Below, piece by piece: positions 41,545-54,812 of a stretch of DNA of 64,000 bases (positions within the stretch are counted from its first letter, which is position 1; each line of letters opens with the position of its first letter). A program made the position numbers and the translations under genes. This DNA is from Bacteriovoracaceae bacterium (GTDB lineage Bacteria; Bdellovibrionota; Bacteriovoracia; Bacteriovoracales; Bacteriovoracaceae). The notes under the pieces are model-generated. The model worked only from the letters and a program-made list of their open reading frames with translations, was not told where the DNA came from and ran no database searches. The stretch is taken from positions 186,001-250,000 of the forward strand of contig JAMPXB010000001.1 of assembly GCA_023701435.1 (NCBI GenBank), in the 5' to 3' direction.

Positions 41545-43209
41545 TTAATTACGAGAAGCTTCTAGTAGTTGTTCTACGACCTGAATTAAAGGCTGCGGAC
41601 GAGGATATTTAAATTCGCAGTTTACTTTAATCGGGTCTCTGCCGTTGATCGGGAAGACCGGACATTTCGGAGATTCACTAAAATAACGTGCAGACTCTTC
41701 ATATACAAAGCTGTGGGCAGCTCTGGCCGCAGGACCAAATTCTTTCGGTGGCAGAGTGCTCTTGGCAAAATCCCACTTAGGCAGACCAGGAACCGGCAGG
41801 AAGTAGTTTTTCCAGTCACGAGGAACGACCCAGAAGAAGTCCGGTTGATTGGTTTTACCAATGAAGTTACGTCTTCTGCTCTTTTTGCTTACGCGCCACT
41901 GACCGCCAATAACATCGCCCTGAGCATTAAGTTCCAGATCATAATTAAAATCAAAATCAGAAATTTTATCGTCTTGTGCGGAGTTAGTTTCTGCAACACG
42001 AGGGTATTCCCAATCAACATATTTTAAAACCACATTTACGCCTACGATATACGCAGTCTCAGGGTTTCTTGATTTTTTGAATGGATCTTTATCGCCATAC
42101 TCATCAACTGAAACGACAGCGGATTTTAATGTGCCTTCTTCGCCATTCTTAGGATTATAATAATAAAGTTCATATCCAGACACTGGCTGGTTCGCAATCG
42201 CCGCTTCTGCCGTCTTATCAACAACAAAGCTTCGTCCTTCCACTCCTAGTAAATTGATCATAGATAAGTGGAAAATGGCAGGATGAACATCCGCACATCG
42301 AGGAGTCAGAGTCGTATCATCACGGTCTAATTCGGTATCGATATAGCGGCCATACTTATCTTTGTCCGGGAACTTCTTATTACAGCGGTTACCTTCGAAG
42401 ATCACATTACTTTGAATCGTAGAATTGGCCCACATCAGAGAAACGAGTGCCTTAATATCATTCGGGTAGAATGGCATTTTTTTCTTGTTTGGCAGAGTCA
42501 CCCAAACAGTATTTTCTGGACGGTGAGAATGTCCGGCGGCCACTGCCCAACCATGACAAATTCCTTCCCATAAGGCCATCAGGTCATTGGCCTTAGGAAT
42601 ACGATAATCATCCGGGATTTCAATCGCTGAAAGGAAACCCCATTTTTTTTCATTACCCCATTTCTCAGTATAATCCCAAATACGTCTGGTCAGATCAAAA
42701 GAAGTATCCCCGAGGAGAATATCGTATTTTTCAGAAGGGGCCAGTTCCGCTAAGTCTTTTTCATCCAACTCATAAATCTTCGGGTGAACTTTGAGCGCAC
42801 GCTTTTTGGCATCTCTTACGTTCTTTTTCCAACCAAAACTTTTTCTTGGTGAGAAAATGAAGGCATTGTAGTCTTTGTCTTGATAATTATTGGCGATCAT
42901 TCCTTGATGGAGTGCCCAGTAAGGTCCGCCCCAAGGTTGAATTTTAGTATTCGCCTGATTGAGTCCACGTGCTTCCATTTGATAAATATTCGAGATGTAA
43001 TTATTCCCTTCATAGAGGGCGGTCACACGACTTTTAATATGGTCTGTGGTGTAGGGTCTATAAGGATAGATACTTTGGTTTGGCTCTTTAATTCCACCAG
43101 GGGATGAGCAATCCTGAAATTCTGGATCACAATCTTGATCGGTGGATTGAGCAAATGCCGGTGCCGAAAGCACAACAAGAGTCATGGATAAATAAAGAAA
43201 CTTTTTCAT
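41545..43209 (-). CDS. Secreted transglutaminase-elicitor-like protein
   Basis: 554 residues from the ATG at 43209, which has GGGAGG at good distance. Signal peptide MKKFLYLSMTLVVLSAPAFA. Near residue 218 WEGICHGWAVAA resembles the active-site Cys segment of the GP42/elicitor-type transglutaminase family (GxCHGWA), and FYPNDIKALVSLMWA follows as in those proteins. Conserved His residues lie further on (HPAIFHLSMINLLG). This points to a transglutaminase-fold thiol enzyme, possibly acting on cell-wall or surface proteins. The assignment is by motif only. The gene faces the YkuD_2 transpeptidase divergently. Confidence 0.57.
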   Translation of the reverse strand: MKKFLYLSMTLVVLSAPAFAQSTDQDCDPEFQDCSSPGGIKEPNQSIYPYRPYTTDHIKSRVTALYEGNNYISNIYQMEARGLNQANTKIQPWGGPYWALHQGMIANNYQDKDYNAFIFSPRKSFGWKKNVRDAKKRALKVHPKIYELDEKDLAELAPSEKYDILLGDTSFDLTRRIWDYTEKWGNEKKWGFLSAIEIPDDYRIPKANDLMALWEGICHGWAVAAGHSHRPENTVWVTLPNKKKMPFYPNDIKALVSLMWANSTIQSNVIFEGNRCNKKFPDKDKYGRYIDTELDRDDTTLTPRCADVHPAIFHLSMINLLGVEGRSFVVDKTAEAAIANQPVSGYELYYYNPKNGEEGTLKSAVVSVDEYGDKDPFKKSRNPETAYIVGVNVVLKYVDWEYPRVAETNSAQDDKISDFDFNYDLELNAQGDVIGGQWRVSKKSRRRNFIGKTNQPDFFWVVPRDWKNYFLPVPGLPKWDFAKSTLPPKEFGPAARAAHSFVYEESARYFSESPKCPVFPINGRDPIKVNCEFKYPRPQPLIQVVEQLLEASRN

Positions 43210-43385
43210 CTGACCTCCCAATAAGGGTATATGTATGACGTGATGTATCGTTTAACCTGGAAATTTGCTAGTCTTATTAGGCACTTGGGTAAAGATTACA
43301 AAGGCATAAATGCCCGATATCAATATCTTTTCAAGGACTTAAGGATTAGGAAGCTTTAATCCGATAGGTATTTTGAGGTATACCT

Positions 43386-45338
43386 ATGATTCATAAGCTT
43401 TTATTCCCATTTCTCATTTTCGTTTGGAGCTTCTCTTCGTTTGCAGCAGAAGATGATTTCAAAATGAGAGTGAGTTGGGTCAAAACACTTAAAGAACTCA
43501 TTCATCAAATTGAAACGACTGAAGACAACAAAATGGTTCTTCAGGAAAAAAAGTTTTTAAAAACATGGAGTCTCATCAGTGAGGCATGGGCAGATGCCCG
43601 TTACGACTGCTTCTATGCAGGCTGGCCCTCGACTTTAAAATCGAGCGGCGGAAAAAAACTTTGTCAGCTTCCAATTCGGTCGAACTCTAGTTATGAAAAA
43701 GGAATTTGTAAAGGTGATGAGCTTCAATGTCAGCCACTTTTATTTGGAAAAAATCTTTGTGTTTCCTTTAGGACAAAAGAAGAAAGAAATTCTTCTTTTT
43801 CAAACTGCGAGAAAAAATTCCAAGCAGCTAAAAATGATCATTATGATTTCTTAAGGAATATTTCCCGCGAACAGGCAAATGACCTTCGGGAAATGTCCTC
43901 CCTTGCTGCTGATATTTGTGGATCGACTTCGAGCTCTCCTCAAAAAGGAAGCAGTATTTGTAATAAAATTAATGAGAAGCTGCCTGATGCCATGAAGGCC
44001 ATTGATCGGGGTTTTGTGGAGGCCACTGCTCAAAGATATCCCGCCACAGAAGAACCGGAGCCCATTCCTACCGGGAGTACACCACTGGTAAAAGCGGAAG
44101 ATTGTGAAGAAACGACAAGTGATGAACATCAGCTGCTTACCAAAAGTGTCATGGGTATTCAGAAAAAGGCGAATGAACCCTATGCTGAATCTTATGAGAA
44201 AATTAAGCAGGAGTTTCTCTCCTCACCATTTTGTGATCCAGAGAAAATCGCTAACAATTCAGACAATAAACCCAGCGCCATTTATATGTCTGTATTGATG
44301 GATGAACTAAGAAATATTGATTATCTGAGCTCTGTCACAAAAAGAAGCGAGTTCATGAAAACCATGCAGGATAAATTTAATTTAAGTTTTTCCGCTCAAA
44401 ATGATGTTTTAGCACTTTTTAACCAGTCCAGCAGCAGCCCTAGTAAGGAAACCTCTATGAGAATAAGGGGCCTGATACTACAGGACGCGATTAAAAATTA
44501 TCGGCCTGGTAACAAACAGCTGGACCAGGAGATGAAAGAGGATCTAGCAAAGAAGAATATTTTCAAAAAGAATTCTGAAGGTGAAATTGAGTGCCCATTT
44601 ATCAGTAAAGATGCGTTTATGAAGGCAATGGCCGGTAAGGAAGATGTTTTGAAAAGCCATGGCGGAAGCATCAAGAAAAAAAATCAAATAACTATCGTGG
44701 ATTATACCCGTCCATCCAATGAGCGGCGGATGTTTGTCATTGACCTTGAGACCAATCAGGTCCTTCATAATACCTGGACCGCCAATGGTATTGGAAATGA
44801 CGGCGGTAAAGGTCAGGACGGCAAGGGAGGTTCTCCTCAAATGTCCAACCAACCGGGCTCACTGAAGTCTTCAGACGGCTTTATTATTGCCACCGCTGCT
44901 TCCCATGGTAACCGCTTTGGTCCTAACGTTCTTTTAAAAGGAATTGATTCCAATAATACCAATATGGCGGCAAGAGCGGTCATCGTTCATGGCTGGGACT
45001 CACCCATGGGTGATTATGCTAATGGCATGAGGGATTATAACGAGAATACCAGAAAATACGATCGTCCTTACGATGTCATTGAACGGGTGATGAAGGAGGA
45101 CTTTAAAAACGGCAGTTCCCAGGAGATGGAAAAAGCTCTTTGGGGTGTGAAAGGGTCGCTGATGACCACTCCTTACCTTTCGCCAACGGAAGGATGCCTG
45201 GGGGTTCCGACGGTCAATATGAAGCATTTGGACCGAAAGGGAAGAAATAAGGATCAGGTAGAACTTCTTAGAGAAGATCTACCTGGCTCAATTATATTCA
45301 GTTATTCAGGTCCGGATATGAAATCGATGTATCTCTAG
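43386..45338 (+). CDS. Secreted L,D-transpeptidase-like protein (YkuD_2 family)
   Basis: 650 residues. The signal peptide (MIHKLLFPFLIFVWSFSSFA-A) and about 380 residues of unrecognised Cys-containing sequence precede a C-terminal catalytic domain. There ITIVDYTRPSNERRMFVIDL, KSSDGFIIATAASHG, ARAVIVHGWDSPMGDY and SPTEGCLGVPTVNM match murein L,D-transpeptidases of the YkuD_2 type. The nucleophile would be the Cys near residue 604 and the His in VHGWD. It should act on peptidoglycan. It converges with the barrel gene by a 4-base overlap. Confidence 0.78.
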   Translation: MIHKLLFPFLIFVWSFSSFAAEDDFKMRVSWVKTLKELIHQIETTEDNKMVLQEKKFLKTWSLISEAWADARYDCFYAGWPSTLKSSGGKKLCQLPIRSNSSYEKGICKGDELQCQPLLFGKNLCVSFRTKEERNSSFSNCEKKFQAAKNDHYDFLRNISREQANDLREMSSLAADICGSTSSSPQKGSSICNKINEKLPDAMKAIDRGFVEATAQRYPATEEPEPIPTGSTPLVKAEDCEETTSDEHQLLTKSVMGIQKKANEPYAESYEKIKQEFLSSPFCDPEKIANNSDNKPSAIYMSVLMDELRNIDYLSSVTKRSEFMKTMQDKFNLSFSAQNDVLALFNQSSSSPSKETSMRIRGLILQDAIKNYRPGNKQLDQEMKEDLAKKNIFKKNSEGEIECPFISKDAFMKAMAGKEDVLKSHGGSIKKKNQITIVDYTRPSNERRMFVIDLETNQVLHNTWTANGIGNDGGKGQDGKGGSPQMSNQPGSLKSSDGFIIATAASHGNRFGPNVLLKGIDSNNTNMAARAVIVHGWDSPMGDYANGMRDYNENTRKYDRPYDVIERVMKEDFKNGSSQEMEKALWGVKGSLMTTPYLSPTEGCLGVPTVNMKHLDRKGRNKDQVELLREDLPGSIIFSYSGPDMKSMYL

Positions 45339-48623: not shown

Positions 48624-51600
48624 TTATTGCTGTTGCTGCTGTTGTGTTTGGTTATAACTGTTACCGAGTGAGATTGTGCTCAGAATCGGTCGCAGAGTAA
48701 TCGATCTTGAAAGATCAAGTTTACGGGCAAAACTCACTCCGTAGAACTGATGGTTTCCGATCGCAGTCAATGCTTCATAATCAGGACGGGCCTTTTTTAC
48801 AGCTCTTAAGATTTTAGAAGCATGAATCTTTATCTGCTGATTATTGGCAGAAGGAAGTGTTGAGCGCATTTCATCCCAACTAATTTCAAGACCAAGTTCC
48901 TTGGCAAAAAGAATGTTTTTAGCATTCTCAAAGGCCGGAATAACTTCCTGCAGGGCCTTTACTTTAACCTGGTTAGAATTAGGCATCATATAGCCGAAGA
49001 GCGAGCCGTATTTATTCAAAATAGCATCGTAGTCTTCACGGCTTGAATTGATGCCATCACGGATTTCAGTAATAAGATTACTGAAGAAGTAAGGCACAAT
49101 CCTGTCGGCCAGACCATATAAAGGCTGACGCTCTACTGAGATATCTACAGACAGACCTTCAAGTGATGCAGCTGATACTCCCAGGAAATTTCCATAGAAG
49201 TTCAGAAAGTAGGCCTGGGCAATGGCGCCATCTGACAGGGCCTTGGCCTCCATCTTAGTAGTTTCTTCAATCTGGTGATAGTGAATCACTTCATGACCAG
49301 CGGTATAGATCTGAGTAAGAGGATCCAATTCTTTACGGATCCAGATAAAGATATCTGAGTCAGAGAATAGACCATGAGACTTGCGTTTTTTAGCAAAGCA
49401 TTCACCGGCATCTTCACGGGCCGAAAGATGGTACTCAAGAATCTTCTTACTGCTCAGGACCGAGATCCTATTAGGAGTTAGTTCCTTTGAGAAAATTTGC
49501 TGCAGCGGCAGGCCTTGTTTTACGGCAAACTGCTCAAGGTTATATTTAGCATATGGCATGGCCTCCATAAGCTCGATGAGTTCTTTCACATCCACACGTT
49601 TTGAATGCATGATGTCGGTCATGCGCTGTAAGAAAGGAAACTCTTTAAAGTGTTGCTCTCTCTTAATTGCCAGATACTGAATCTTTTTATCGGCCGACAT
49701 TCTCTTGGCATCAGCTTCAATTTTCATCCAGGCCGCTCTGGCCTCTTTGATATGATCTGGGATGAAGTCTGAATCAATCAGAAGTTCACCCGTTGCAAAT
49801 TCTTTCTGAGATGCAGTCAGGAATCCGGAATTCTTGGCAAGGCTTTCATCAGAAAGACCGAAGGTTTCAAACTTCAGTTCAGGATGAACTGTCTCGGTTG
49901 TGAAAAGCTTGGCAAACTCAATGGCCTTCTCTGAATTCTGCAATCGGTCTCTTACGATCACCATGAAGTTCTCAATGAGTTTCATCATGTTGGTAGCAGT
50001 CTTACCGTTGATGTTTTCACGAGGGAAATCAGCTTCAATACTTGCACGTAGAGTGTTCAGAAGGTCATTAAAATCCTTCATGAGAAGCTTATTGTCCCCG
50101 GCCTTCTCTTTCAGCATAGCTCTTAAAGTTTTAAGAATTTTACGGTCATGCTTACGATGTTCTTCAGTGTAGTTCTGATAAACGATGTCCTGATCAATGA
50201 TCAGAAGTTCATCCATCTGGTCACGGAAGCTCTTAGGGAGCTTGTTCTTTCCTTCCAGTCTTTGAAGTGCAGTTACCAAAAGGATCTGGTTGTTATTTAT
50301 TGTTTCAAAGTAGCGGGCCGTTGGCAGGGTAGACTGCTTGGCCTCCAGCACATCAATAATTTTATAAACGGGTTCGATCGCCCGTGGATTCATGAATGAG
50401 AGGACTTCACGACACTGAGTCTTAAGAGAGAGGGCCAGACCCAGCATAGTGTAACTGTCGGCAGTATCATTTTTAAGATGATTATACATCTCCGTGGCCA
50501 GTCGAGAGACTTGAATCAGTTGGGCCGCAACAAACATCGGCAAATGAGTTTGAAGAGGAACCGGGCTTTTTTGTTTGATAAACTCAGACGCAGTTACCGA
50601 TTCAGGAGTTCCTACATCATCAATGACCACGAAAGGAGCATAACCGCCGCCCTTAGAGGTATTAACGATTGAACTCATTGGTCCTTTTTCTTCAGGAGCG
50701 TATCGAACCAGAGCATTGTGGGTCATTTTTGGAAGTGCCTTGGCCCCTCCTCCATAGAAAACCCATAAGCGGATATCGGCCGCAAGATTGGCAAAGCGGG
50801 TTCCTGACTTATCTTTCATTGCCACCGGGATACGGGCAATCTTAACAAGTTTCTGATAAGCATAGTGAGATGGATTTGTTCTCACCATATCCATGACTTC
50901 TTTCTTCGCTTCTGAAGAGAGGGTCTTCATAATGTAGATACCGGAGCCACCAGAAAGGTTAGGGGCCTTGATTACCCACTCATCCATATTATCTTCAATT
51001 ACCTTAACGGATTCTTTCTGCGGTGGAAGAGTTTCAGGTGGCGTAATTTTTGGACCGTTTACGGCAATGCCCAGTTCTTTAATTTTTGAAGAGAAGAACT
51101 TTGGAGCGTATGTCGTCAGGGCCGCAAGGATTATTTTATTATCAAGGATACGGTTAAGACCACCCATGTAGATCCTACGATTTAAAATAGCGTCGATAAG
51201 TCCTGGTACGGAATAATCAGATTGAAGAGGAATTGGATTTCCATTTACGTCCAACACCAGAGGAGCTTCACCTTCTTCACCCAGTTTTAATGAATCACGA
51301 AGATAGATTGGTTCATTGGTATCAGGATCACGAAGAATGATACCACGATCAACATCAAACAAGGCCGAATCAGCGTTGATACGAGAGTAAATGGCGGTCA
51401 CAATAGGATTTGACCCATTGATTGTGCGAAGACGGATATAGCCTTTATCGTCCTGGAACAACTGGACCGGATCAGCGTAAACCAGACCTGAGTAAGCGGC
51501 CAGGTTATGAATCTCCGGTGCAGCACCATTCATTCCTCCAGGTGGAAGAATAACCTGGATACCATCTTTTACACCTGTCCAGTCATCGCCGAGAGACTTA

Positions 51601-52385
51601 TAAGTCTCGGCCAGAACCTGAAAGTGATCATTAGGCATCATCTTGCCCATAGACTCAAGAACTTCCGGGTTCTGCTCATAGTGACCTTCGAGCACGTTCA
51701 TATTGTTGGAAGCACCTGAAGGAGCTCCAGCATTAAGTTCAAGAATTCGGAATGGAAGCTCTGGCAGTTTAGCAACTTTTTTCGATTTCAAAATCTCTTC
51801 AAAGTTTTTCGATTGCTCCAGATAGTCTTCAATTAAAACCAGATCGAGACCGACGTTATCAAAGAAGGGATACTTCTTCATGTTCGGATGGTGGAGTTGA
51901 GGGAAATAGTTCGGTGACTCAATAATGGCCTGGATGAAAATCTTTCGAATATCGGCCGGCAGTGATTTTACAAATGGAGAATCTTTAATGGATTTTGAAC
52001 CATAGATATCCTGGATTACACAACGAAGTGAAACGATAAGGGACTGGGCCGCTTTTTCAATAGTATTGAAAACCGACTTCTGCAAAGGAACGATAGTCGT
52101 TGTACAAGGGACAGTAAAAATTTTGTAATTACCACTGGCATCTGACTTTTGGAAAGTTAGGTCGCGCTTACGGATAAAACGGGTGAGATTTCTTGATTCT
52201 TTCAAGTGAACAGAAACTTCTCGTGAAAGTAGATTCTTCACCAGTGCTTTTGAGTGTTTGTAGGGCGCGCGCTTTCGCTTCGATGAAAAGATGTAGTTCG
52301 CAACATCTACTTTCACACTCCCAATAAACCCTTGATTAGGGTTATACGGTTGGAGTTTGCGACGAGAATTTTTCACTTTAATCAC
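48624..52385 (-). CDS. Circularly permuted ATP-grasp protein fused to an HExxH metallopeptidase-like domain
   Basis: 1253 residues with a GTG start preceded by GAGAGG. The region 180-600 follows the circularly permuted ATP-grasp pattern: ILELNAGAPSGASNNM (213-228), AIYSRINADSALFD (331-344), WVIKAPNLSGGSGIYI (470-485), DIRLWVFYGGGAKA (537-550) and VNTSKGGGYAPFVVID (574-589). Related proteins are ATP-dependent amide ligases. A helical region (610-980) follows, then IYTAGHEVIHYHQIEE with HEVIH at about 1031-1035, a zinc-peptidase motif. The protein ends QTQQQQQQ. No signal peptide is seen. The ligase-peptidase fusion is unusual; biochemical function is unknown. Confidence 0.72.
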   Translation of the reverse strand: MIKVKNSRRKLQPYNPNQGFIGSVKVDVANYIFSSKRKRAPYKHSKALVKNLLSREVSVHLKESRNLTRFIRKRDLTFQKSDASGNYKIFTVPCTTTIVPLQKSVFNTIEKAAQSLIVSLRCVIQDIYGSKSIKDSPFVKSLPADIRKIFIQAIIESPNYFPQLHHPNMKKYPFFDNVGLDLVLIEDYLEQSKNFEEILKSKKVAKLPELPFRILELNAGAPSGASNNMNVLEGHYEQNPEVLESMGKMMPNDHFQVLAETYKSLGDDWTGVKDGIQVILPPGGMNGAAPEIHNLAAYSGLVYADPVQLFQDDKGYIRLRTINGSNPIVTAIYSRINADSALFDVDRGIILRDPDTNEPIYLRDSLKLGEEGEAPLVLDVNGNPIPLQSDYSVPGLIDAILNRRIYMGGLNRILDNKIILAALTTYAPKFFSSKIKELGIAVNGPKITPPETLPPQKESVKVIEDNMDEWVIKAPNLSGGSGIYIMKTLSSEAKKEVMDMVRTNPSHYAYQKLVKIARIPVAMKDKSGTRFANLAADIRLWVFYGGGAKALPKMTHNALVRYAPEEKGPMSSIVNTSKGGGYAPFVVIDDVGTPESVTASEFIKQKSPVPLQTHLPMFVAAQLIQVSRLATEMYNHLKNDTADSYTMLGLALSLKTQCREVLSFMNPRAIEPVYKIIDVLEAKQSTLPTARYFETINNNQILLVTALQRLEGKNKLPKSFRDQMDELLIIDQDIVYQNYTEEHRKHDRKILKTLRAMLKEKAGDNKLLMKDFNDLLNTLRASIEADFPRENINGKTATNMMKLIENFMVIVRDRLQNSEKAIEFAKLFTTETVHPELKFETFGLSDESLAKNSGFLTASQKEFATGELLIDSDFIPDHIKEARAAWMKIEADAKRMSADKKIQYLAIKREQHFKEFPFLQRMTDIMHSKRVDVKELIELMEAMPYAKYNLEQFAVKQGLPLQQIFSKELTPNRISVLSSKKILEYHLSAREDAGECFAKKRKSHGLFSDSDIFIWIRKELDPLTQIYTAGHEVIHYHQIEETTKMEAKALSDGAIAQAYFLNFYGNFLGVSAASLEGLSVDISVERQPLYGLADRIVPYFFSNLITEIRDGINSSREDYDAILNKYGSLFGYMMPNSNQVKVKALQEVIPAFENAKNILFAKELGLEISWDEMRSTLPSANNQQIKIHASKILRAVKKARPDYEALTAIGNHQFYGVSFARKLDLSRSITLRPILSTISLGNSYNQTQQQQQQ

Positions 52386-52693: not shown

Positions 52694-54160
52694 TTAAGTA
52701 TGCGGGCCTTGGTAAGAAGAAGTTGCTTGTTGTGAGGTTGCGTTAAAACGAATGATAAACAGGCTGCCGTGTGGTTCCATTTTTCTATAATCAATTTCAG
52801 CGTGATGAAATTGGGCAATTTTTTGCGCAATTGGCAGGCCAATTCCTGTACCTGAGGCGATATGGGGCGATATTCGATGAAATCTAACATTAAGAATGTT
52901 TTGGACGTCACACTCATTAATACCTGGCCCTTCGTCCTGGATCCAGACTTCGATTTTAGAATCGATGTTTTTGATATTAAGTTCGATAGTGCTTCCTACA
53001 GGAGAGTATTTTATGGCGTTGTCGAGGATGTTTTCAAATAAGCTTTCCAGAAGTTGTTTTTCACCCATGACTTCCATATTATGGTCTTCTTCTATGTTGA
53101 AGCGGATGTTGATTTTTTTCTCTCTCGCTTTCACATTGAGGCGAGACGAAGTATTGAGCAAGAGATCGTCCAGTCGCAAGGGATGAAAAACAAAACTGTC
53201 TAATCCGGACTCAACACGTGAGACAAGCAGCATGTTTTTTACAAGGTCAACCAAACGCTCCAATTCCTCACGCAGGGACTTATGAAAGCGCTTATGCTCT
53301 TCCAGAGTGCGGCCCTTGGATTCTAAAACATCAAGTTCACCCTTCATAATGGCCAGCGGTGTATTGATCTGGTGGCTGGCATTGGCAACAAAGTTTTCCT
53401 GGGCCTTAAAAGACGTCTCCAGGCGGTCCAGGAGCGTATTTAAGGTTTTACTCAGCTCTTCAACCTCATCATCTGTATTAGCAATGGGAACGCGTAATGA
53501 GAGGTTACTGGCCGCAATCATATTCGCTGTGTCGGTCAAAACTTTAATTGGAGCAAGAGCATTTCCCGCGATGAGGAAAGCAATAAAGCTGGAAGTGATG
53601 ATGAGTATGGGTACCATCAGAAAAGTGATGATCAGATGATTTCTTTCCCTTTCAATTAAGGTACTGAGGGATGCCGCCACCTGCAGGATCATTTCCCTTC
53701 CGGCATCATTAGTGATCTTTACATTGACCCCTCTGAATTCTTCGGAACCAATTTGAAAAGTGACAAAACGATGGGTGTAGTCCTCATAGGATGGCAGGTA
53801 GGAATCAAAAGGAATATCAGCTTCCTGCAAGAGCTCTTTACTCTTGGAGAGAATGCTTCCGTCATAGGATCTAACGGTATAGAGAGTTTTGTTTAATATG
53901 AAAGGGAAGGCCTTTTTGATTTCACTTTGAGGTAAGTTAAAATCAATTTTTAGACCTGAATCATCAATCTCCAGATATTCAGAGAGGTCGATGGCATAGT
54001 TCAATAAACCCGAATCAAAGTCTTCCCGCCCTGATTGAAAATACTGGCTTGATATGATGTAAGCAAAAACACAGATGAAAAGTCCAAAAAGCGTAGAATA
54101 GACAACTGTCAGTCGGAATCTGATGCCTTTAAAAATCTTAATCAATCTTATTAAGGACAT
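52694..54160 (-). CDS. Sensor histidine kinase
   Basis: 488 residues from the ATG at 54160. Two transmembrane segments (about 20-40 and 180-202) flank a periplasmic sensor region. A HAMP domain follows (NALAPIKVLTDTANMIAAS). The H-box is ANASHQINTPLAIMKGEL, then the N-box FENILDNAIKYSP, G1 DEGPGI and G2 GTGIGLPIA. It is a class I kinase that phosphorylates the adjacent OmpR-type regulator. The overlap of 23 bases with that gene shows coupling. Confidence 0.93.
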   Translation of the reverse strand: MSLIRLIKIFKGIRFRLTVVYSTLFGLFICVFAYIISSQYFQSGREDFDSGLLNYAIDLSEYLEIDDSGLKIDFNLPQSEIKKAFPFILNKTLYTVRSYDGSILSKSKELLQEADIPFDSYLPSYEDYTHRFVTFQIGSEEFRGVNVKITNDAGREMILQVAASLSTLIERERNHLIITFLMVPILIITSSFIAFLIAGNALAPIKVLTDTANMIAASNLSLRVPIANTDDEVEELSKTLNTLLDRLETSFKAQENFVANASHQINTPLAIMKGELDVLESKGRTLEEHKRFHKSLREELERLVDLVKNMLLVSRVESGLDSFVFHPLRLDDLLLNTSSRLNVKAREKKINIRFNIEEDHNMEVMGEKQLLESLFENILDNAIKYSPVGSTIELNIKNIDSKIEVWIQDEGPGINECDVQNILNVRFHRISPHIASGTGIGLPIAQKIAQFHHAEIDYRKMEPHGSLFIIRFNATSQQATSSYQGPHT

Positions 54161-54812
54161 AACCCTGACCCACAACCGTTTTCAGAATCTTATTCGGGAA
54201 AGGAGAGTCTATTTTTTTTCTAAGGTGATTAATATAGACATCAATGACGTTGGAGTCGGGGTCAAAATCTGTTCCCCATACTTGTCTGGCGATAGCATTA
54301 CGATCAACGACCTTATCAATATTTCTCATCATGAACTCAAGCAGCGTGAATTCTTTTGTGGTGAGGTCTATCTTTGTTCCGTTACGGGTTACATTTCGTG
54401 AAATCAGATCCATTTGAAGATCGCCGTTTCTTAACTGGGCCTTATCATCATGCTTTCTTCTAATCAGCGCTCGAACTCGGGCCAATAGTTCTTCAAATTC
54501 GAAGGGCTTTACCAGATAGTCATCGGCACCAGAATCAAGGCCCATGATTTTATCTTTAGTGGTGGCCAGAGCGGTAAGCATGAGAATGAAGCCGTTAAAG
54601 TTATGAGAACGAAGTTCTTTTGCAAAATCCATCCCGCTCATTTGAGGAAGCATTACGTCAAGGATGATAAGATCAAAATTTTGTGACTGAATTTTTTCTC
54701 GCGCCAGACTAGGAGTATCAGCTGTTTCCACAAGGTAAGCTGCTTCTTGCAAACCCTGCTGAATGAGGGCCGAAACTTTTTTCTCATCTTCTACGACCAA
54801 AATACTGATCAC
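54138..54812 (-). CDS. OmpR/PhoB-family response regulator
   Basis: 224 residues. The receiver shows VVEDEKKVSAL, the phospho-Asp in IILDVMLPQMSG, MLTALA and LVKPFEFEEL. The winged-helix output domain follows (LTTKEFTLLEFMMRN, VIDVYINHLRKKID, VGQGYVL). It would bind DNA and regulate transcription under control of the kinase encoded next. Because the ATP-grasp operon lies downstream on the same strand, it is a candidate target; inference. Confidence 0.95.
   Translation of the reverse strand: MISILVVEDEKKVSALIQQGLQEAAYLVETADTPSLAREKIQSQNFDLIILDVMLPQMSGMDFAKELRSHNFNGFILMLTALATTKDKIMGLDSGADDYLVKPFEFEELLARVRALIRRKHDDKAQLRNGDLQMDLISRNVTRNGTKIDLTTKEFTLLEFMMRNIDKVVDRNAIARQVWGTDFDPDSNVIDVYINHLRKKIDSPFPNKILKTVVGQGYVLNKID

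Follow-up and report, generated by a model that had tools for sequence, protein, structure and literature searches.

The operon that joins a circularly permuted (CP) ATP-grasp ligase to an alpha-E protein and a transglutaminase is reportedly to be credited to Iyer 2009. In the passages of later papers used here, this gene set often includes the peptidase Anbu, and a role in making peptides or attaching them has been put forward (PMC5666114, PMC6376114, PMC3597751); according to the relevant passages, its ATP-grasp released phosphate from ATP, and none of the substrates tried revealed a peptidase activity of Anbu (PMC6376114). The link of this ATP-grasp to the circularly permuted type comes from Pfam architectures (PMC3597751), and is not stated in the passages on Anbu. 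In trypanothione synthetase-amidase, as presented in the parts consulted, a single chain holds an ATP-grasp ligase and a hydrolase reversing its reaction (PMC11124245, PMC2845819), and RloABC of Pseudomonas is described, in the sections used, as an ATP-grasp, a transglutaminase-like protein and a peptidase encoded in one operon and genetically coupled in stress tolerance (PMC12239564). Here we analyse a 64,000-nucleotide stretch of a Bacteriovoracaceae genome (GenBank assembly GCA_023701435.1, contig JAMPXB010000001.1, positions 186,001 to 250,000; hereafter the window) with a gene, P0001, whose product is, as judged from its sequence and that of its homologues, a real and conserved fusion of a ligase domain of the CP-ATP-grasp type with a peptidase-like domain carrying an HExxH motif.

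P0001 (Table 1) is a single frame of 1253 residues starting with GTG, and the longest open reading frame (ORF) listed on the opposite, plus strand across it has only 99 residues. A first-pass annotation, made from the sequence alone, had placed permuted ATP-grasp motifs at about residues 213-589 and HEVIH at about 1031-1035 of this protein; the ORF and the Pfam matches bear these numbers out, with the ATP-grasp motifs within about 206-589 and HEVIH at 1031-1035. Genes of the same type were found in 31 loci retrieved by contig search (some clipped by contig ends), which rules out an assembly artefact. For comparison we used a family set of 44 members (P0001, L033-L062 minus L037, which is the window's own gene, L063, L070-L073 and L085-L093); L002-L032, mostly repeats of the same genomes, and partial proteins were left out, L056 was kept although it lacks the N-terminus, and four further full-length matches (G305, G309, G312, G313) lie outside the set. 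Nine of the members (L085-L093) had been picked with HExxH as a condition, and a recount showed that no member was lost by it. Pairwise identity in the set is 37% at the lowest and 51% in the median, with 38 members remaining non-redundant at 90%, and the mean frequency of the top residue is 0.77 in the ATP-grasp, 0.74 in region 971-1060 and lowest, 0.55, in the helical middle (residues 611-870).

The ATP-grasp core proposed in the first pass is supported. Pfam finds CP_ATPgrasp_2 (PF14403, E 7.6e-20, best stretch 452-561) and CP_ATPgrasp_1 (PF04174, E 1.8e-11, best stretch 206-339) in P0001, both above cut-off, and hhalign aligns the profile of residues 1-620 from the 44 members to that of 11 classical CP-ATP-grasps over 471 columns (probability 99.4, E 7.9e-22). 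The structure 3n6x was the sole match of P0001 in a PDB sequence search at E<=10; it also ranked first with the family profile (E 2.1e-4) and in a fold search (probability 1.00, E 0.013), where the template modelling score is low as the ATP-grasp half is poorly modelled. None of the 44 members departs from K473, Q511, D537, R539, R561, N575 or S577, which we take, by comparison with ATP-grasp enzymes in general, to be catalytic residues. The CP-ATP-grasp domain is very probably active as a catalyst.

In the C-terminal part, G1030, H1031, E1032, H1035, Q1038 and E1046 around the motif are invariant in all 44 members. An AlphaFold2 (AF2) model of residues 870-1253, built on a shallow alignment of 26 sequences (mean predicted local distance difference test, pLDDT, 71.4), predicts strands at 974-977, 994-1000 and 1007-1017 followed by a helix at 1022-1052 that bears HExxH, and strands followed by an HExxH helix are the order expected for a zincin. 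By blocks, pLDDT is 92, 76 and 57-87 for the strands, with 57 where the third begins, and 92 and 84 at the motif-bearing start of the helix and 60 at its end; a longer model (mean pLDDT 62.7) agrees on the HExxH helix. The helical setting claimed for HEVIH is thereby supported, the motif being predicted within a helix after beta-strands and not on a loop, and being conserved in homologues. Candidates for a third metal ligand are E1046, eleven residues after the motif in the same predicted helix, and E1147 and E1153 in a later helix, all three invariant. A sub-threshold match to DUF6782 (PF20573), a putative metallopeptidase family, was obtained in 26 of the 26 members scanned (best E 5.8e-4), and one PHROG without known function gave a match ending on the HExxH motif (E 0.013). 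We consider it likely that this domain binds a metal. Elsewhere in the phylum, a 941-residue ORF (L097, G018:C42:877-1371) is the sole DUF6782 match above cut-off in 356 genomes.

The in-depth search for relatives covered the phylum of the window, and the contig search detects close relatives only. Matches were found in 74 of 368 phylum genomes: 48 hold the full-length fusion in one match, 10 hold it in pieces only (mostly at contig ends), and in the other 16 the match is to a different CP-ATP-grasp or, in one case, to a fragment. The fusion proposed in the first pass as worth seeking elsewhere in Bdellovibrionota thus recurs there, and in the window's own genus it is present in 26 of 26 genomes (20 full, 6 in pieces); the titles of matching contigs name Bacteriovoracaceae, Halobacteriovoraceae, Bdellovibrionales, Oligoflexia and similar. 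A phage search gave no relative of P0001 at E<=0.01. Among plasmids 65 records match, none covering 80% of P0001, and in the 15 matches listed coverage ends at residue 608.

The helical middle between the two modules was tested as an Alpha-E domain, for which there was no support (hhalign against 11 Alpha-E proteins, probability 0.5%; no Pfam match to it in P0001-P0003). Alpha-E (PF04168) was not found in the window's genome, which is 93.6% complete, and an Alpha-E gene was present in one of 97 phylum genomes searched. That gene lies at L117, in a run of three that reads as a CP-ATP-grasp, an Alpha-E and a transglutaminase-like gene, the first and third assigned by eye and by alignment.

Conservation of the neighbourhood was counted in the 21 of the 31 loci that have at least 6 kb downstream (near loci) and in 14 distant loci, several clipped by contig ends. 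In every one of the 21 near loci the next gene downstream, on the strand of the fusion gene, is a P0002 homologue, and all 14 distant loci have one nearby; as the P0002 gene is divergent from the fusion gene in six of the latter (L085-L088, L092, L093), it is there a conserved neighbour rather than an operon partner. P0002 was also considered as a membrane protein, but in most homologues a simple scan of hydropathy gave no support for this, and a trans-envelope claim was dropped. P0003 homologues, found in 21/21 near and 8/14 distant loci, mostly end in a C-terminal Phe, and the protein may be outer-membrane barrel-like. A TGase_elicitor-type gene stands on the same strand in 16 of the near loci; it is linked, and likely its own transcription unit. 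Its family, PF16683, is another transglutaminase family than that of L117, and was found in each of the 58 genomes that carry the fusion (in full or in pieces), vs 145 of 310 others, related genomes not being independent. At L063 the gene immediately before the fusion gene is a transglutaminase gene, and at L067 one directly follows a related ATP-grasp gene. Counted per genome, where about five candidates were scored so that numbers are lower bounds, there are five TGase_elicitor matches in the genome of P0001 (G000) and at least four in 48 of the 58 fusion genomes, and some other genomes also reach five. A response regulator and a histidine kinase (52694-54812) are encoded upstream of P0001 on its own strand, and 308 bp separate them from it; both recur upstream at >=40% identity in eight of the 21 near loci, 15 of which have more than 3.5 kb upstream.

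Table 1. Features of the P0001 locus in window coordinates.
Feature	Residues or length	Position	Strand	Basis or remark
P0001, CP-ATP-grasp, helical middle, HExxH domain and Q tail	1253 aa	48624..52385	minus	
Circularly permuted ATP-grasp	residues 43-611	50553..52259	minus	Pfam, hhalign, conservation
Helical middle, not detectably Alpha-E	residues 611-870	49776..50555	minus	least conserved part
Predicted zincin-like unit	residues 971-1060	49206..49475	minus	AF2 model m629e9e68188f
HEVIH motif	residues 1031-1035	49281..49295	minus	
C-terminal SYNQTQQQQQQ tail		48627..48659	minus	
P0002, helical, function not predicted	746 aa	46366..48606	minus	next gene, 17-bp gap
P0003, signal-peptide-like start	344 aa	45335..46369	minus	overlaps P0002 by 4 bp
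TGase_elicitor (PF16683) transglutaminase-like protein, signal-peptide-like start		41545..43221	minus	E 3.6e-32
L,D-transpeptidase-like (YkuD_2) protein		43386..45338	plus	Pfam; looser neighbour, 8/21 loci

Each of the 44 proteins has at least QQ as its last residues, and 38 of them end in YNQTQQ with 0-6 more Q, the terminal run being 2 to 8 long and its last two letters constant. A YNQTQQ-coding pattern occurs once per genome in 26/26 genus genomes, always where, by its coordinates, the P0001 homologue ends, with codons varying synonymously (the pattern allowed synonyms only, and all 26 matched). In G000, four glutamine codons before a stop were found only once, in P0001; two other pattern matches end in TGG. 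Because the run varies in length while its last two letters never vary, a primer or a conjugation site comes to mind, and one may speculate that P0001 is a self-modifying writer-eraser whose ATP-grasp would extend or conjugate its own Q tail, whose HExxH domain would trim it, and whose glutamines or product would be used by transglutaminases. We regard this as a long shot.

A second group of CP-ATP-grasp relatives, family B (L064:2604-5894, L065, L066, L067, L068, L078-L084, L095), shows a strong signal-peptide-like hydrophobic start in 13 of 16 proteins, judged by hydropathy only and with start codons not fixed; the start of L064 contains a lipobox-like LFISAC. An ATP-using ligase with such a start would lie outside the cytoplasm. 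HExxH is found in six of the 16, and lies in the C-terminal part of all six proteins above 1000 residues, two of which are from one genus. Four of the six HExxH-bearing proteins, two from one genus, end in QQ or QQQQ; of the ten without the motif one is clipped by a contig end and the other nine lack a QQ end, three ending in AQ. On the speculative writer-eraser reading, the signal-peptide-bearing relatives with HExxH and, in four of six, QQ as last residues would hint that this chemistry also takes place outside the cytoplasm. Homology between the C-terminal parts of family B and of the P0001 family (family A) was not shown (probability 0.2%, the alignment limited to the HExxH helix). At L077 (4681-5439) a separate 253-residue protein is related to the C-terminal half, with GYELIY replacing HExxH; two TGase_elicitor-like genes lie within a few kb, and its genome has no ATP-grasp match at E<=1e-5.

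Ten plasmid loci, picked from P0001 and Alpha-E matches, were opened. CP-ATP-grasp and alpha-E are annotated in 10/10, a transglutaminase in 9/10 and a putative zinc-binding metallopeptidase in 3/10, the latter (L120:6504-7565, L121:2515-3468, L125:5566-6627) inside or beside the CP-ATP-grasp/alpha-E/transglutaminase loci; two of the three were scanned by Pfam and both are Peptidase_Mx with a zinc ribbon. These three loci (on two Caballeronia plasmids and one Hymenobacter plasmid) resemble that of P0001 in bringing together a CP-ATP-grasp, a transglutaminase and an HExxH zinc-peptidase or peptidase-like part, but their genes are separate and the P0001 domain has no detectable homology to Peptidase_Mx (PF15887; no Pfam match at E<=0.1, and an hhalign probability of 0.3%, a weak test with a three-sequence profile).

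Like the CP-ATP-grasp/alpha-E/transglutaminase operon, the P0001 locus has a homologous ATP-grasp, a transglutaminase-type partner and, as the peptidase of the set, a peptidase-like part. It differs in that this part, an HExxH domain, is joined in cis to the ligase and is not an Ntn-hydrolase such as Anbu, in that the transglutaminase is of the PF16683 family and has a signal-like start, and in that P0002, P0003 and the Q tail are present and no alpha-E was detected at the locus. With trypanothione/glutathionylspermidine synthetase-amidase, as far as described in the parts consulted, P0001 shares an ATP-grasp ligase and a putative amide-cutting domain in one chain; there an N-terminal cysteine amidase cuts the amide, whereas the HExxH domain is C-terminal, and neither CHAP nor GSP_synth is among the Pfam matches of P0001 at E<=0.1. 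The E. coli synthetase-amidase is of the same kind. RloABC likewise brings ATP-grasp, transglutaminase-like and peptidase-type components together, but, in the sections used, as separate genes with a RimK-like ATP-grasp, a retropepsin-like protease and an inactive transglutaminase with seven membrane helices (PMC12239564). The first-pass annotation knew of no described system with this fusion. A literature search named none, with a mention in Iyer 2009 remaining possible; the broader claim of novelty has to be narrowed, as ligase-hydrolase fusion is known from trypanothione synthetase-amidase and ATP-grasps beside separate peptidases are known already (Anbu, in the passages used; PMC5666114) or were found here (Peptidase_Mx). 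What is new in P0001, at the level of sequence, is that the peptidase-like part is fused and belongs to another family than in known CP-ATP-grasp operons, and therefore its architecture is new within a known operon type.

We propose, evenly poised between belief and doubt, that P0001 is a two-module ligase/peptidase-like enzyme in a cell-envelope peptide-modification pathway. In its favour, both modules can be recognised in the sequence and are strictly conserved, and the gene neighbourhood and the association with transglutaminases were likewise observed; the weak DUF6782 match also counts for it, and the separate zinc-peptidase gene beside CP-ATP-grasp in three plasmid loci may be read as a supporting parallel. 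From these we infer both catalytic activities, the location, the envelope role, the substrate, the order of steps and the action of the modules on related bonds. P0001 would probably be cytoplasmic; its CP-ATP-grasp would activate a carboxylate as acyl phosphate and join it to an amine, giving a peptide or isopeptide-type amide, and the C-terminal zincin-like domain would hydrolyse or trim the ligation product or a precursor. Its partners would be P0002, the barrel-like P0003 and, at a greater remove, transglutaminase-like proteins that are exported. That both modules make and cut the same bond, as the first pass imagined, is conceivable but doubtful. Several results weigh against the proposal. 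Fold searches of the C-terminal part, resting on models from shallow alignments (22 sequences in one, 26 in the other), gave no significant match in PDB (best E 0.72, probability 0.03; no zincin among the rows shown) or in BFVD (best E 0.19, probability 0.90), so that the gluzincin assignment made earlier was not substantiated; the weak BFVD matches are small phage proteins, several at probability 0.75-0.90 and E 0.19-0.42, and IrrE-like and SprT-like names come lower in the list (probability 0.23). The DUF6782 match is below the curated cut-off (16.5 bits vs 27), and since 64 of 356 phylum genomes, among them many that lack the fusion, and three of 14 controls give matches that are equally weak or better, the profile may merely see HExxH helices. 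The third metal ligand is at the candidate stage only, the ATP-grasp half is poor in the long AlphaFold model, and the motif is missing from the degenerate relative L077. Transglutaminase linkage is retained in only 3/14 distant loci, and P0001 has no signal-like start while the transglutaminase has one, so that the two may not meet.

An HExxH alone would be weak evidence, because 585 of 20000 shuffles of P0001 (2.9%) contain one, and a chance motif or a mis-joined gene would account for it; this explanation is already refuted, with scarcely any credence left to it, by the invariance of the motif in the whole family and by the same single ORF across dozens of assemblies. Harder to dismiss, if still unlikely, is that an active HExxH peptidase processes another target, such as the precursor of a peptide, a protein partner or its own tail, before or after ligation and without reversing it. 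The known operons, which encode their peptidase separately (Anbu in the passages used, PMC5666114, PMC6376114; Peptidase_Mx here), point to a pathway step and not a futile cycle, and the conserved tail sits on the same chain; yet the substrate is still to be named, and throughout the 44 members the fusion holds the two modules strictly at 1:1. The HExxH site might instead be structural or regulatory, or belong to a pseudo-peptidase, leaving the ATP-grasp alone as catalyst. The lack of a fold match, the ambiguous third ligand and L077 would fit such a site, but E1032, the catalytic-type residue, is invariant besides both histidines, and the long family B proteins also have a C-terminal HExxH; we think it distinctly improbable.

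CP-ATP-grasp operons are widespread, and their product is not named in the papers used here. The fusion ties a ligase and a peptidase-like domain to one pathway and supports the older proposal of peptide synthesis or modification, and a single gene now offers both steps, together with a conserved tail, for testing.

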